Assembly: GCA_009920665.1 (NCBI GenBank)
Contig: RFZL01000003.1
Location: forward strand, 1-64,000
Direction: 5' to 3'
DNA: 64,000 nucleotides
DNA from: Alphaproteobacteria bacterium
GTDB taxonomy: Bacteria > Pseudomonadota > Alphaproteobacteria > Puniceispirillales > Puniceispirillaceae
Position numbers and translations under genes: made by a program. Below the pieces are notes generated by a model. The model had not been told where the DNA came from. It searched no databases and was given only the letters and a program-made list of their open reading frames with translations. Of the stretch, positions 22,148 through 29,523 are shown in pieces; the stretch's first letter is position 1, and the number at the start of each line of letters is the position of its first letter.

Positions 22148-22471
22148 TCAGGCGATGCTGCTGGTGATCCAGGTTTCGAGCTGTGATTTCGGCACCGCGC
22201 CGATCTTTTCGGCAACCACCTCGCCGCCCTTGAAAATCAACAGCGTGGGGATGCCGCGGACATTATATTGCTGCGGGGTCAGCGGATTCTCGTCGATATT
22301 CAGCTTGACGATCGAGATGGCCTCGCCATGCGCCTCGCTGAGCTCCTCCAGCGCCGGCCCGATGGCCTTGCAGGGGCCGCACCATTCCGCCCAGAAATCA
22401 ACAAGCACAGGCCCATCAGCCTGCAGGACGTCGGCAGAAAAATCACTGTCGGTTGTCTTTGTCGTCGCCAT
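22148..22471 (-). CDS. trxA: thioredoxin
   Basis: A 107-residue thioredoxin with the redox motif WCGPCK (Cys31, Cys34) and the cis-proline in GIPTLLIF. The start at 22471 has AAGGGGGC about 9 bases upstream, whereas the longer frame to 22549 adds non-conserved residues. It is a general cytoplasmic disulfide reductase. It follows the addB-addA ORF by 74 bases on the same strand, as is usual in alphaproteobacteria. Confidence 0.95.
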   Translation of the reverse strand: MATTKTTDSDFSADVLQADGPVLVDFWAEWCGPCKAIGPALEELSEAHGEAISIVKLNIDENPLTPQQYNVRGIPTLLIFKGGEVVAEKIGAVPKSQLETWITSSIA

Positions 22472-22545
22472 CGTCAGATGCCCCCTTGAAAGTCGGATTG
22501 GCGGATTGACCCGCCCTCCCAAGGTAGGAGCCACGCCCCGAACCG

Positions 22546-25500
22546 TCAAGGCGTTGACTCACCGGCAAGCGTGGCAAGTGCGGCCGCGCGTGTATCCGGT
22601 GCCACCGCTTCTACCGCCGCCACCTCGGTCCAGATCAGCCATGTCACAATGTCACGCTGCGGATAGATCTGCGCCATCAACGCGCCATAGAGCGCCATCT
22701 GCCTGACATAGGCATCAGGCGTTATGGCCGGCCGCGGCCCGGTCTTGAAATCGCCGATCAACACCCGCTTCGCATCGACATGCAAACGGTCGATCTGGCC
22801 GGCGACACCGACCCCCTGCACCAGGCCGCTAACCGAAATCTCGGCAAGCGCGTCCGGCCCGAACAGCGGCGCAAGTTCCGGCATCGCCAGCACATGTCTG
22901 ACCTCGGCAGCAAGCGCCAGGGCGGGCTCTGCCGGCAACTCCTTCTGCGCCTCGATCATCGCCGTGATGACGGCGTCGTGTCGGGCGGCTGGCAGATGCG
23001 GCAGCACCTCGAACATGCGGTGCGCCAGCCGGCCGCGCGCCAGCGCCGTGGTGGCGGTGGTAAAGCGCATGCCGGGGGCAGTTGCCGCGGTGGCGGCACC
23101 ATCCGGCACCGAGGGCCGCAGCGGACGTGGCGGGCGCGGTTCGGCTGGTGCCATCCGGAACAGCCAGCCGGGAATTTCCCCGGTCTCCTCCTCGCGCGGC
23201 GGGGTCGGCAGACCGGTTTTCACTTCTTCCACCTTGCCCGCGGTTTCGACACGAAGCCCGCCACCCTCGATGCCGGTCACCCCGGGCATGGATTCGATCC
23301 GCGCCAGCAGATGCTCGTAAAAGCTGCCTTCCAGACGCCGGCGACGCGGTGCCTGCCAGCCGCCAATGATGATACCGTCACGGGCCCGGGTCAGCGCGAC
23401 ATAGAGCAGCCTGTTCTCCTCCTCGCGCTCCCGCTGGCTTGCGGCCTCGCGGACGGCGGTGACAAAATCCGGACGCGCCGCGCCGGGCGCCCAATAGACA
23501 AAGCCGCTATCCGGATCGCGCACCAGCTGGTCAGTCACACCGGCCGGTTTCAGCATGTCGGGAAGAACGACCACCGGCGCCTCGAGTCCCTTCGCGCCAT
23601 GGATCGTCATCACCCGCACCTCGTTGGCGGCAGCGCTGTCCATATCACGGCGCACCTCGCCGCCACTGCCACGCAGCTCGGCAAGGAAGGCGGTCAGCGA
23701 CACACCGCCGCCAGCACCGAAACTCTGCGCCAGCCCGAGAAAATGCTCGAGCGTCTCATCAACCGCCGCACCGAGCCGGCGCCGGAAATCCTGCCGCGTC
23801 TCGGTCAGCACCGCGCTGAAAAAGGCGAAAACCGACCGATCATCGGCAAGGTTCCTGAAATGCTGCAGGCGGTCCGCCGCCCGCCCCATCGCGTCGGCGC
23901 CGCCGGCATGCGCCATCAGGCGGGCGTGAAGGCTGCGTTTGCCGCGGTCATGGGCCAGCGTGAAAAGCGCCTCCTCATCCAGCCCGAACAGCGGCGATTT
24001 CAGAACCGCCGCCAGCTGCAGATCATCCTCGGGAAGCAGCATCACATCGCCAAGTGCCAGCAGATCCCTGATCTCGATCTGATCCTCAAGCTTCATCCGG
24101 TCGGCGCCGGCGACCGGAATGCCGGCTTGCTGCAACGCCGCCAGCACCAGCCGGTGATAGCGCCCGCGCTTGCGCAACAGGATCATCACATCGCCGGCCC
24201 GCATGACCCGTCCCGATGGCAGCAGGCGGCTGCCGATCCAGCCGGCGAGCTGTTCGGCCAGCCGGGTCGCCGACAGCGCCGCCGCGTCACGCGGCTGGCT
24301 GATCTCGGGCGGGGCGAATGATGGCAGTACCGGTGCCTCGCTGTCATCGCTGATGACCGGCCAGATTTCGACAAAGCCGCCAGCATCGACGCGGGCCGAC
24401 CGATGCGCCTGGAAGCCCGGCATGCGCGGATCGGTGATGCCGGCAAGGTCAGGCACGGCCAGGTTGACAAGATCAAGCACCGGCCGCGCCGAACGGAAGG
24501 AGACATCAAGTCCGACCTCGCGGAGCGGCGCACGGCGCGACCCGGCGCGCTGCCGCAAATCAAGCCGGTTTTCTCCCATTACCGCCGGATCGGCACCCTG
24601 AAAGGAATAGATTGACTGTTTGAAGTCACCGACCACAAACAGCGTGCGCGGCCTGTCATCGCCCGCCACCGGCTCGAAGAACTCGTCACTCAGCCGGCGC
24701 AGCAGCTGCCATTGCGCCGGGCTGGTATCCTGTGCCTCATCAAGCAGCAAATGGCGGATGCCGTTGTCGAGTTTCCACGCCACCCACTGCGCCGCCTCGC
24801 CATCGGCAAGCATGTTGTTGGTCAGGCTGATCAGATCATCATAGTCAAGCAGCCCCCGCTGCGCCTTCAGCCTCGCATATTCCGCCTCGAACGCGGTGCC
24901 GACCTGATAGAGCGCCATCGTCAACTGCCAGCATCGCAACGCGGCGCGCGCGGCCTGTATCGACATCAACGCGTCCTGCGCCACCTGCTGCACCGCCACA
25001 ATGCCGGGGAAACCCTTCCTGATGCCGGCGTTCGACAGGCTGCGCTCGGCCAGTGGAAGTCCGGCATTGGTGAACAGCGCGTCAATCAACCGGTCGATAT
25101 GGCAGCGGCGCCCGGCCGGTACCTCGCCAAGCCAGGCGGTGATCCGCGCCCCGCGCTTGACCTGCCCGTCAACGCCGCTTGTCTCGAGGGCGATGGCGGC
25201 GGCGCGCAAGCCCTCCTCATCGAGTCCGGACACCACCTCCGCGATCATCGCGTCCAGATCGAGATTGGTATCGACCCCGCATGTATCGGTGAAATGTCGC
25301 TCAAGCTGCTGCAGCAACAGCGGCTCGCCGATGCGATCTTCCTTGGCGAGCAGTTCCTTCAGCACGGTTTCGGCATTGCCCTCGCTCGTCTGCTCGGCCA
25401 GCAGCGCGATGTGCCGCGCGAGATCGGCGCCGGAGCCCATCAGCAGATTGTCGCGCGCCCGGGATTTCAGCCTGGCCTGTTCAAATTCATCCGCAAGTTC

Positions 25501-28500
25501 GGCCTGCGGCATGATCCCGGCCTCGATCGGGAAGCGGCGGAGCACCGACTGGCAGAAGGAATGCACCGTCTCGACACGCGGCCCGTCATCATTGTCCAGT
25601 GTTTCGGCGAACAGGCTGCGTGCCCGCGCCAGCATCGCCTGGGTGGGGGTGGCAATTCCCATACCGGCAAGTTCGGTGCGAAGCAGCTTGCCGCTTGCGA
25701 TCGCCCATTTCGCCAGCTGCGCCGAGATTCTGTTCCGCATTTCAGCGGCGGCGGCCCGCGTATAGGTCACACAAAGAATGCTGTCCGGCGGTGCCCCGTC
25801 CAGCATCAGACGCAGCACCCGGTCGGTCAGCAGCTTCGTCTTGCCGGTTCCCGCATTGGCCGACACAAGGGCCGAGCTGTCGGGGTCGGAGGCCGCCGCC
25901 TGCTGCGCCGATGCCTCGCTGGCCACGGCCGGGTCAAAGCCCGGCGTTACCGGCGTCGCGTCTGCCGGTGCTGTCGGCACGCCGGCACCGACCGGGCCGG
26001 TTTCCCCGATCCGCCATTCATCGACCCGCGCCAGATGGTCATAGAGCGGGAATGCCGCGCCAAGCTGCGGGTCCGGCCGGCTGGCATAGGGCATCGCCGG
26101 GTCATCAAACCGCGCCGCGAGCCGCGCCAGACTGTCCCGCGCCGCGGCGGCATCCCAGTCCGGCGGTTGCACGGGCTTTCGCGACCCGGGCTCGTCTCGC
26201 TTGCCGGTCAGCCGCCAATATTCCATCTCCAGAACGTCCGCCGCCGCGATTCCGGCAAAGCCGCCATGCGCGGCGATCACCGCTTCGGTCACAAGCTGCG
26301 TTCGCCGCCCCTGCGCCACCTCGGCGGCGCTTGGCGCGCGTCCGGTCTTGTAGTCGAGGATGGCGAGACCACCGCCGGTGAAGCGGTCGATCCGGTCGGC
26401 GCGCGCGGTGAATGTCACCGGCCCGTCCGGCGCCTCGACCTCCAGCGCCCCGCGCACCTCGGCATGGCTGTCCTGCAGGCCGGCGCGGCGGCGCACCTCG
26501 GTCTCGACAAACCAGGCTGCCATGGTGCGAAAGGCCGGCCACCAGAAATACCGAACCGTCGGAACCCGCCAGAACGGGTCAAAATGCCGTCGCGCAATGG
26601 CCAGCAATTGATCAAGCGCATCGTCAGGCAGATCACCTCGCGGGTGCGCCACAAGAAAGGCGGCCAGCGTGTCATGGACAAGGTTGCCGCGAAGTGCAGC
26701 GTCGATCGGCCGGTCGATCTCGTCAAGCTGTCGCAGGCCAAGCACCCGTTTCGCATAGAGGCTGTAGGGGTCGGCAATCCAGTCATCAATCTCGGTGGCT
26801 GAAAAACGCCGTGGCCGCGTACTGACGGGCGGTGCCGGACGCGGGCGGGCACAGGGCGTCATCGGCGGCACCGGCGACAGCGCGACAAGCTGGTCACGCC
26901 AGCGCTGGCCATCATCAACGGCCTGTTCGATGCGCAACGCGCCCAACACCGCGCCAAGCCTCTGCAGCCAGCGACTGGGCGTTGTCACCGCATCGCCATC
27001 ACGCAGCGCCCGGGTGATGATCACCTCCGGCGCGGTGGTGGCCATCCAGACATCATGCGCGCTGAGCCCGGTCCGCCAGTTATGCGGCTGCAGGCCGGCG
27101 GCCTGCCGCATCTCGGCATTCATCCAGGGATCGATGTCGGGGCGCGGCGGCCAGTTGCCCTCGTTGAACCCGCCAAGAATCAACCTGTCGGCACTCTGCA
27201 TGCGCGCCTCGACCGGCCCCAGGATGGCCAGGCGGGGATGCGTCTGCCAGCTGCGCCGCACGGTTTTTGACGCCATCAGCTGTGCCAGAATCTGGGGAAA
27301 GGATACCGGATCGGCCGCATAGACCGCGCCATGTTCGGCAAGAGCAGACAGCAGCTGTGCCGCCACTTCGCCATCCTCGCCAGCCCAGAGATGAAGCGCC
27401 CCGTCGGCAAGATCGATGCTCCCGTCAGCCTCGCTTCGCCGCGCCGCGAGCGCCTCGGCGGCGCTGCCGGTCGCGCGCGCCAGCGACGAAAGGTCGGGCG
27501 CCGTGGCCGACCAGGCATCAATCAGCGGGGCCAGCGGGGCGACGACATGCGACTCGAAAAAACCGAGCAACGCCGCATCACCGGCCAACCGGTCCCGGAT
27601 ACCGTCCAACCCTTCCGCCGGCCGGTACCCGCGCAGCGCCGCAAGCTCCAGCGCCCGAAGCTGTGACCTGAAACGGGCTGGCGCCATGCCGCCAGCAACC
27701 AGCGGATGTTTCAGGAATGCCAGCGTCGGAACAGGCGCGAAAGCCTCGGCAATCATGGTGATCATGCTTTGCAGAAAGCCGCCAACAGGACAGGCCGACA
27801 GAGGACGGCCAGCCGAATCATCAACCTCGATGCGCCAGCGTTGCAGCGCCGCGATCACCGCCTCGGCAAGCTGCCGGTCCGGTGTGACAAGCGCCGCCGT
27901 GCGGCCGGGTGTTTCCAGAACCTCGCGCATGGCGACGGCAATCAGCCCTGCCTCCTCGGCCCGCGTGCCGCATTCGACAACCGACATCCCGTCCAGCGCG
28001 TCGCGGCCAAGCTCGGGCCTTGTCGCGGCAAGTTGACGCCAGTCAGCGCTGAGGGCCGCCGGCTTGAAGGCTTCGCGCATCAGTTCACACCGTGGAAGGC
28101 CAGAACCAGCACGGCCAGTTGCCGCCATCCAGGTGGAAATATCAACCACAGTGACACCAAGCGCAGACAGAAGCACCGACAGCTGATGCTGCGGATGGCC
28201 GGCATCGGCCTCGATCTCCCGCCAATGGTCGGCAGCCCCTTGATCGAGGCCGGGCAACACCACATGCCCGTTCGGCAGGGAGGCGACACACGCAATCAGC
28301 TCGCGCGTTGCGGCAAAGGTACCGGTCGATCCTGCCACCACCACCAGCCCCTGCGGCGGTGAGCGGCGCCATGCCTCGCAGCGAAGCCTGATCAGCCTGT
28401 TGCGCCGGTCCCCCGGGTCGAGAACGCCCTGTTCGGCAAGAATGGCCGGCCAGCGGTCAATCAGGATGGTCAGAAGTTTCAGAATATCCTGCCAGTGGCG

Positions 28501-28977
28501 TGAAAACCGTTCAGGAAGAAGACCGGCAAGCTGTTCCGGAGTCGAATCGACATTGCACAGCGCATCGAGAAGCCGCGCCAGCGACTCCGCAAGCTGCATC
28601 GTCTGCGGCGCTGTCGGCGCCACGCCGCCCATCTGGAATCCCTGCAGCAGGCGCGCCAGCCAGAGCTGTCGGCACAGCGTGTCCATGGCTGGAGGCAGCG
28701 CCGCCCCATCCACCGCAAAGCCCAGAATTTCAGGCGAATCCTCCTCGACATCGCCGATCGGTTCGATCCGTGGCAGCAGCGTGGCATCCTCACCCCTGAT
28801 TTCCAGGAACGCCGCCCGAAGCGACAGCGCGGCGCGGCGCGACGGCACCAGAATGGTGGCCCGCGCCAGAGTGTCGGCCGTGCCGGCAAGATCGACGATG
28901 CCGCTGGCAAGCGTCGTGGCAAAAGGCACACCCGCCGGGATAGAATGAAGATTTTGTGCGGGAGCAACTGACGTCAT
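22546..28977 (-). CDS. fused AddB-AddA double-strand break repair helicase-nuclease
   Basis: One uninterrupted ORF of about 2143 residues. Residues 1 to about 1010 match AddB: a degenerate helicase fold without Walker A and a RecB-type nuclease with LDYKTG at 874-879 (Asp875). Residues from about 1030 match AddA: Walker A SANAGTGKTK (Lys1046), VETVHSFCQ, LLLDEAQDTS, VVGDFKQSIYSFQGADP, MTIHGAKGLEAP, LLYVALTRARD, and a second nuclease with GDFKTG (Asp2076). Normally these are two genes. The join (about 1005-1035) is a Pro/Ala/Thr-rich linker with no stop and no Met. Both nucleases and the helicase look intact. The start is at ATG 28977 rather than the TTG at 29007. Role: end resection for recombination, like RecBCD. 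Confidence 0.93.
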   Translation of the reverse strand: MTSVAPAQNLHSIPAGVPFATTLASGIVDLAGTADTLARATILVPSRRAALSLRAAFLEIRGEDATLLPRIEPIGDVEEDSPEILGFAVDGAALPPAMDTLCRQLWLARLLQGFQMGGVAPTAPQTMQLAESLARLLDALCNVDSTPEQLAGLLPERFSRHWQDILKLLTILIDRWPAILAEQGVLDPGDRRNRLIRLRCEAWRRSPPQGLVVVAGSTGTFAATRELIACVASLPNGHVVLPGLDQGAADHWREIEADAGHPQHQLSVLLSALGVTVVDISTWMAATGRAGSGLPRCELMREAFKPAALSADWRQLAATRPELGRDALDGMSVVECGTRAEEAGLIAVAMREVLETPGRTAALVTPDRQLAEAVIAALQRWRIEVDDSAGRPLSACPVGGFLQSMITMIAEAFAPVPTLAFLKHPLVAGGMAPARFRSQLRALELAALRGYRPAEGLDGIRDRLAGDAALLGFFESHVVAPLAPLIDAWSATAPDLSSLARATGSAAEALAARRSEADGSIDLADGALHLWAGEDGEVAAQLLSALAEHGAVYAADPVSFPQILAQLMASKTVRRSWQTHPRLAILGPVEARMQSADRLILGGFNEGNWPPRPDIDPWMNAEMRQAAGLQPHNWRTGLSAHDVWMATTAPEVIITRALRDGDAVTTPSRWLQRLGAVLGALRIEQAVDDGQRWRDQLVALSPVPPMTPCARPRPAPPVSTRPRRFSATEIDDWIADPYSLYAKRVLGLRQLDEIDRPIDAALRGNLVHDTLAAFLVAHPRGDLPDDALDQLLAIARRHFDPFWRVPTVRYFWWPAFRTMAAWFVETEVRRRAGLQDSHAEVRGALEVEAPDGPVTFTARADRIDRFTGGGLAILDYKTGRAPSAAEVAQGRRTQLVTEAVIAAHGGFAGIAAADVLEMEYWRLTGKRDEPGSRKPVQPPDWDAAAARDSLARLAARFDDPAMPYASRPDPQLGAAFPLYDHLARVDEWRIGETGPVGAGVPTAPADATPVTPGFDPAVASEASAQQAAASDPDSSALVSANAGTGKTKLLTDRVLRLMLDGAPPDSILCVTYTRAAAAEMRNRISAQLAKWAIASGKLLRTELAGMGIATPTQAMLARARSLFAETLDNDDGPRVETVHSFCQSVLRRFPIEAGIMPQAELADEFEQARLKSRARDNLLMGSGADLARHIALLAEQTSEGNAETVLKELLAKEDRIGEPLLLQQLERHFTDTCGVDTNLDLDAMIAEVVSGLDEEGLRAAAIALETSGVDGQVKRGARITAWLGEVPAGRRCHIDRLIDALFTNAGLPLAERSLSNAGIRKGFPGIVAVQQVAQDALMSIQAARAALRCWQLTMALYQVGTAFEAEYARLKAQRGLLDYDDLISLTNNMLADGEAAQWVAWKLDNGIRHLLLDEAQDTSPAQWQLLRRLSDEFFEPVAGDDRPRTLFVVGDFKQSIYSFQGADPAVMGENRLDLRQRAGSRRAPLREVGLDVSFRSARPVLDLVNLAVPDLAGITDPRMPGFQAHRSARVDAGGFVEIWPVISDDSEAPVLPSFAPPEISQPRDAAALSATRLAEQLAGWIGSRLLPSGRVMRAGDVMILLRKRGRYHRLVLAALQQAGIPVAGADRMKLEDQIEIRDLLALGDVMLLPEDDLQLAAVLKSPLFGLDEEALFTLAHDRGKRSLHARLMAHAGGADAMGRAADRLQHFRNLADDRSVFAFFSAVLTETRQDFRRRLGAAVDETLEHFLGLAQSFGAGGGVSLTAFLAELRGSGGEVRRDMDSAAANEVRVMTIHGAKGLEAPVVVLPDMLKPAGVTDQLVRDPDSGFVYWAPGAARPDFVTAVREAASQREREEENRLLYVALTRARDGIIIGGWQAPRRRRLEGSFYEHLLARIESMPGVTGIEGGGLRVETAGKVEEVKTGLPTPPREEETGEIPGWLFRMAPAEPRPPRPLRPSVPDGAATAATAPGMRFTTATTALARGRLAHRMFEVLPHLPAARHDAVITAMIEAQKELPAEPALALAAEVRHVLAMPELAPLFGPDALAEISVSGLVQGVGVAGQIDRLHVDAKRVLIGDFKTGPRPAITPDAYVRQMALYGALMAQIYPQRDIVTWLIWTEVAAVEAVAPDTRAAALATLAGESTP

Positions 28978-29034
28978 GCCGTCATCATACAGGCAACACC
29001 GCGCCAAAACGAGGGCTGACAGTTCAAAATCCCG

Positions 29035-29523
29035 TCAGTTCACACCCTGCATCTGGGTATCAATTTCCGTTATTAACGTCTGCCACCGGCCACCACCGGC
29101 AAGCGAGACAGCACGTGTGTCGTTATTGTCCGGGCCAGGGTTGATGGCGACATTCAGCGCGGTGCGTGGCAGATAGGGACCGAGGCGCTGCGCCCATTCA
29201 ACAAGACAGACAGAGTCGATAAAGGCATCCTCGATCCCGAGTTCCAGCGCGTCCTCGGGTGAGTCCAGCCGATAGAGATCAAAATGCATCAGAGACGGGC
29301 CCTCGGCCGGTTCATAGGTCTGCACCAGCGTGAAGGTCGGGCTGGGGATATCGTCTTCCTGCGGGCAGACATGCCGGATAATCGCGCGTGCAAGAACCGA
29401 CTTGCCAGCACCGAGCGGACCATCGAGAGCCACCACATCGCCGGCCTTCAGCCAGCCCGCAATGAAATGACCCAGCCGCTCGGTCGCGGCCGGGTCACGA
29501 AGAGTCAGATCAAGCCGGGTCAT
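29035..29523 (-). CDS. tsaE: tRNA threonylcarbamoyladenosine synthesis ATPase TsaE
   Basis: A 162-residue YjeE/TsaE P-loop protein. Walker A GPLGAGKS is at residues 35-42, SPTFTLVQTYE is the conserved switch, and HFDLYRLDSPEDALELGIEDAF carries the Walker-B-like Asp; VEWAQRLG follows. With TsaB and TsaD it supports t6A37 formation on ANN-reading tRNAs. It lies five bases after ahcY and 57 bases before addB-addA. The sugar kinase and nucleotidyltransferase genes (amgK, murU) often found between tsaE and addB are absent. Confidence 0.92.
   Translation of the reverse strand: MTRLDLTLRDPAATERLGHFIAGWLKAGDVVALDGPLGAGKSVLARAIIRHVCPQEDDIPSPTFTLVQTYEPAEGPSLMHFDLYRLDSPEDALELGIEDAFIDSVCLVEWAQRLGPYLPRTALNVAINPGPDNNDTRAVSLAGGGRWQTLITEIDTQMQGVN

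Follow-up and report, generated by a model that had tools for sequence, protein, structure and literature searches.

A probable clade-fixed fusion of addB and addA in an alphaproteobacterial genus of the SAR116 clade

The window, by which we mean the whole 64,000-nucleotide stretch of DNA analysed here, carries a single open reading frame that runs first through AddB and then through AddA, the two subunits of the AddAB helicase-nuclease. The organism belongs to the SAR116 clade of the Puniceispirillales, its database relatives being SAR116 bacteria and Candidatus Puniceispirillum. The single frame is confirmed as an observation. Judging from comparative sequence evidence, it is very probably a genuine addB-addA fusion fixed in its clade, which would yield one chain of about 230 kDa carrying out the usual AddAB resection of double-strand breaks for recombination.

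An earlier note on this DNA had described one AddB-AddA frame of 2143 residues between positions 22546 and 28977. That description is confirmed: the frame lies on the minus strand, and both alphaproteobacterial NCBIfam models match it above their cut-offs. The features of the locus are as follows.

29035 to 29523, minus strand: tsaE, the upstream neighbour (Pfam TsaE)
22546 to 28977, minus strand: addBA fused gene, 2143 amino acids, from ATG at 28977 to the stop at 22546
26011 to 28950, minus strand: AddB part (NCBIfam TIGR02786, addB_alphas), residues 20-999 in TTG-start numbering
26083 to 26808, minus strand: C-terminal PD-(D/E)XK nuclease domain of AddB (Pfam PDDEXK_1), residues 734-975
26341 to 26355, minus strand: AddB nuclease motif DYKTG, found in all fused homologues covering the site
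25891 to 26013, minus strand: linker of 41 residues, from VDEW (last conserved in AddB) to SDP (first conserved in AddA)
22612 to 25905, minus strand: AddA part (NCBIfam TIGR02784, addA_alphas), residues 1035-2132 in TTG-start numbering
25837 to 25851, minus strand: AddA Walker A motif, GTGKT
24727 to 24741, minus strand: AddA motif II, DEAQD
22738 to 22755, minus strand: AddA nuclease motif GDFKTG
22148 to 22549, minus strand: thioredoxin gene (Pfam Thioredoxin), the downstream neighbour, whose longest frame touches the addBA stop

The longest reading starts at a TTG at 29007 and ends at the same stop (22546), giving 2153 amino acids; the ATG at 28977 is the position aligned among the other members of the genus. 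Both profile matches are full-length, with 845.3 bits for AddB (equivalog cut-off 486.5, profile positions 2-1024 of 1024) and 925.8 bits for AddA (cut-off 860.75, positions 2-1135 of 1138). UvrD-type helicase domains begin at residue 1034 (Pfam), and AddA motif VI, EENRLLYVALTRA, is intact. Counted from the ATG, DYKTG falls at 875, the Walker A lysine at 1046 and GDFKTG at 2075, where the earlier note had placed them. Its statement that the active sites look intact also holds, since the window protein has all the helicase motifs and both nuclease motifs, as do nearly all fused homologues whose sequence spans these sites. Long open frames also occur on the forward strand of the interval (for example 24712-26802) and are taken as by-products of the GC-rich addBA codons.

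The same arrangement is found throughout the genus. Twelve genus genomes were examined. The complete fused frame lies on one contig in eight of them, the window's own included, and two more read in frame through the junction on partial contigs; in one of the remaining genomes addB and addA sit on different contigs, and the other is without the locus. The frame is thus uninterrupted in all ten species that cover the junction on one contig. The complete fused proteins of the seven other species are 61-93% identical to the window protein. An apparent TGA in one genus member, G001, sits 5' of the start codon and does not break the frame. The window genome (2.69 Mb, 214 contigs, 99% complete) yielded no second addA or addB, its sole other match being a UvrD-like helicase.

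Outside the genus the picture is that of two genes, in line with what had been claimed for most alphaproteobacteria. The sister genera within the family and the other members of the order have addB and addA as separate genes lying in different frames, and separate genes also prevail in the class-wide draws. In the family and order the junction is usually an ATG..TGA overlap (ATGAATGA and ATGACTGA are examples), and a purine-rich stretch resembling a Shine-Dalgarno sequence often lies just upstream, within the end of addB; a few two-gene relatives instead show a clean stop or leave a few bases between the genes. Measured between the same anchors, the distance is 61 bases in the close two-gene relative G018 and 123 or more in the fused genus, so that at least about 62 bases must have been gained on balance at the fusion, with a shift of frame, and the mere loss of a stop codon would not have sufficed.

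Mechanistically, this gain of about 62 bases, reckoned against the closest two-gene relatives, would in the ancestor of the genus have erased both the stop and the start and placed the two parts in one frame. Ribosomes would then translate through a flexible linker from the AddB nuclease domain into the AddA helicase domain, and the resulting chain would fold into the usual helicase-nuclease and resect double-strand breaks for recombination.

The overlapping start and stop codons of the two-gene relatives suggest that translation of AddA was already coupled to that of AddB, and the two-gene state was probably a coupled one. The fusion makes this coupling absolute for newly made protein, though the practical gain may be small. 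The forced 1:1 stoichiometry proposed earlier stands for newly made chains, but the change is smaller than had been implied, because most two-gene relatives start AddA inside or adjoining the AddB stop, usually with an overlap. The altered Chi-like regulation that the earlier note also suggested would be a speculative further consequence.

A class-wide draw of 289 genomes revealed one further lineage with an uninterrupted frame, the alphaproteobacterial family f38. Here all twelve AddAB-bearing genomes, among the 16 examined (which are also all the genomes examined from its order), are fused across the junction, including one assembled in 2 contigs (loci L066, L068, L070 and L074-L082). The order is again AddB-linker-AddA in one frame; the linker, 31-37 residues long, shows no relationship to the one in the SAR116 genus. 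The search for relatives with both domains in one chain, proposed as a check in the earlier note, found them in the genus and in f38. No third fusion was found in a second class draw (252 genomes) or a phylum draw (249 genomes), both of which overlap the first draw and were searched with score limits that may miss very divergent full-length chains.

In a tree built from the concatenated AddB and AddA domains, with the linker left out, each fused group forms one clade with full support and the fusion state changes twice. Constraining all fused proteins to one clade, as expected from a single fusion spread by descent or by transfer between the clades, was rejected (AU p about 6e-30). On this phylogenetic evidence, the SAR116-genus and f38 fusions are of two independent origins.

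Several other long frames were considered as fusions and set aside. In G244 (open frame of 2586) the genes are separate with an opposite-strand gene between them, and in G163 the coordinates place the long AddA frame in a different frame from AddB. In the SAR116 genome G126 the open-frame figure of 2144 codons is misleading: the locus (L122, G126:C3:9500-19500, on a contig shared with L052) holds two genes, and its addA shifts frame after about residue 204, most likely through an assembly error.

Four loci from four different alphaproteobacterial families (L067, L069, L071 and L072, in G242, G247, G351 and G418, respectively) have addB and addA in the same frame, and are not fusions since one stop ends addB. 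The next ATG follows that stop directly or one codon on, leaving these loci one point mutation short of fusion.

As had been noted from the sequence, the window join has neither a stop nor an in-frame ATG. Between VDEW and SDP the linkers of the genus measure 41, 42, 46, 50 or 52 residues and differ by whole codons only; that of the window is rich in Ala, Pro, Gly, Thr and Asp, and no conserved sequence was found in the central part across the genus. In the closest pair of species the linker dS is 0.34, against 0.34 and 0.29 in the flanks, and its dN of 0.18 is about five times the 0.04 of AddB and AddA, yet still below dS; with only 21 codons these linker values are indicative only. A dS equal to that of the flanks, together with a raised dN that stays below dS, points to a linker that is translated, flexible and loosely constrained. 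An AlphaFold2 model of residues 566-1560 from a six-row alignment reached a mean pLDDT of 45, and its junction is too poor for use.

Such a divergent and probably exposed segment could also be where AddA is released or restarted, so that AddA would additionally, or mainly, be made as a separate protein through internal initiation or proteolysis of the linker, and the working enzyme would be the usual heterodimer. Several species do have in-frame GTG or ATG codons in their linkers, and most of the genus shares a GTG positioned six codons ahead of the AddA part. However, this GTG has no Shine-Dalgarno sequence, no start position is common to all species, no conserved AddA start codon with a Shine-Dalgarno at the right distance was found in the genus linkers, and the ATG..TGA overlap of most relatives is gone. 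We therefore consider separate production of AddA quite unlikely, and infer that one intact chain works in the cell in the manner of AddAB.

A second alternative is that the fused gene represents a decaying or repurposed AddAB whose activity has been lost. At E 1e-60 no AddAB match was found in f3 and f4, two families belonging to the window's order, nor in four of the 16 f38 genomes (G427, G430, G431 and G432). Judging from these searches, parts of both orders appear to have lost AddAB or replaced it, which makes the enzyme dispensable in these lineages. Against decay, dN/dS between species is about 0.1-0.2 in both parts, indicating strong purifying selection, and the catalytic motifs tested are kept as described above. 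Decay is highly improbable on these grounds; halves that are typical and under purifying selection argue instead for an ordinary AddAB resection enzyme synthesised as a single chain.

An organism with two ordinary genes, falsely joined by a mistake in sequencing or assembly, is almost certainly not what is seen here: the window genome is split into 214 contigs and genomes of this kind do contain frame errors (the addA of G126 breaks frame after about 204 residues), but the same open join in seven other complete and two partial species, with linkers varying by whole codons, excludes the hidden indel that the earlier note had wished to see checked, and the second fused clade includes the 2-contig genome.

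Proteins commonly evolve by the fusion of neighbouring genes whose products are subunits of the same complex. No published natural AddBA fusion was found in the open-access literature searched. We regard AddBA, modestly, as a solid, clade-wide and convergent variation on a well-known repair machine and not as a new kind of system. Nature can join AddB to AddA while keeping the motifs and the selective constraint, and has done so twice with unrelated linkers. A bolder reading holds that single-chain AddBA arose at least twice since linking is advantageous, and that these are natural single-chain resection machines regulated unlike the heterodimer. We find this somewhat unlikely; if true, the advantages could include the absence of orphan AddB or AddA, faster assembly, and a linker that restricts movement of the AddB nuclease domain.

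The probable clade-fixed fusion has practical consequences as well. It would offer a ready-made 1:1 single-chain resection enzyme for structural and single-molecule work, and if the chain acts as a single unit, which is one possibility beside a swap of domains between two copies, the C-terminus of AddB must lie within reach of the N-terminus of AddA in the complex. For annotation, proteins of about 2150 residues labelled 'AddA' or 'AddB' in both clades should be taken as real and not as merged gene calls.

Compared with alphaproteobacterial AddAB (TIGR02786 and TIGR02784), the fused gene keeps the addB-addA order and matches both models over nearly their full length above the equivalog cut-offs. 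It differs in having the two parts joined by a 41-residue linker within a single gene and chain, whereas the known systems consist of two genes, usually with the ATG..TGA overlap. Known AddAB is made of two separate polypeptides; the ten genus members covering the junction encode one. The f38 fusion shares the AddB-linker-AddA order, with an unrelated linker and a separate origin.

The AddAB of Bacillus subtilis is an enzyme of the same type, equipped with two PD-(D/E)XK nucleases and a single SF1 helicase motor. Its AddB carries a C-terminal iron-sulphur cluster. No cysteine was found in residues 885-1052 of the window protein (TTG-start numbering; about 25850-26355, minus strand), and such a cluster is thus not apparent in the stretch from DYKTG in AddB to Walker A in AddA. 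Among solved structures the AddA half is closest to the AddA of B. subtilis AddAB (PDB 3u44 and 4ceh; 3u44 chain A matches at E 1e-26), in which the subunits are separate and not fused as here.

More distant are RecBCD and the mycobacterial AdnAB, which do the same job of resecting double-strand breaks (PMC5030088). RecB is distantly related to the AddA half (PDB 1w36). Both are multi-subunit enzymes of other families, and the addA and addB models fit the window protein far better than recB does.
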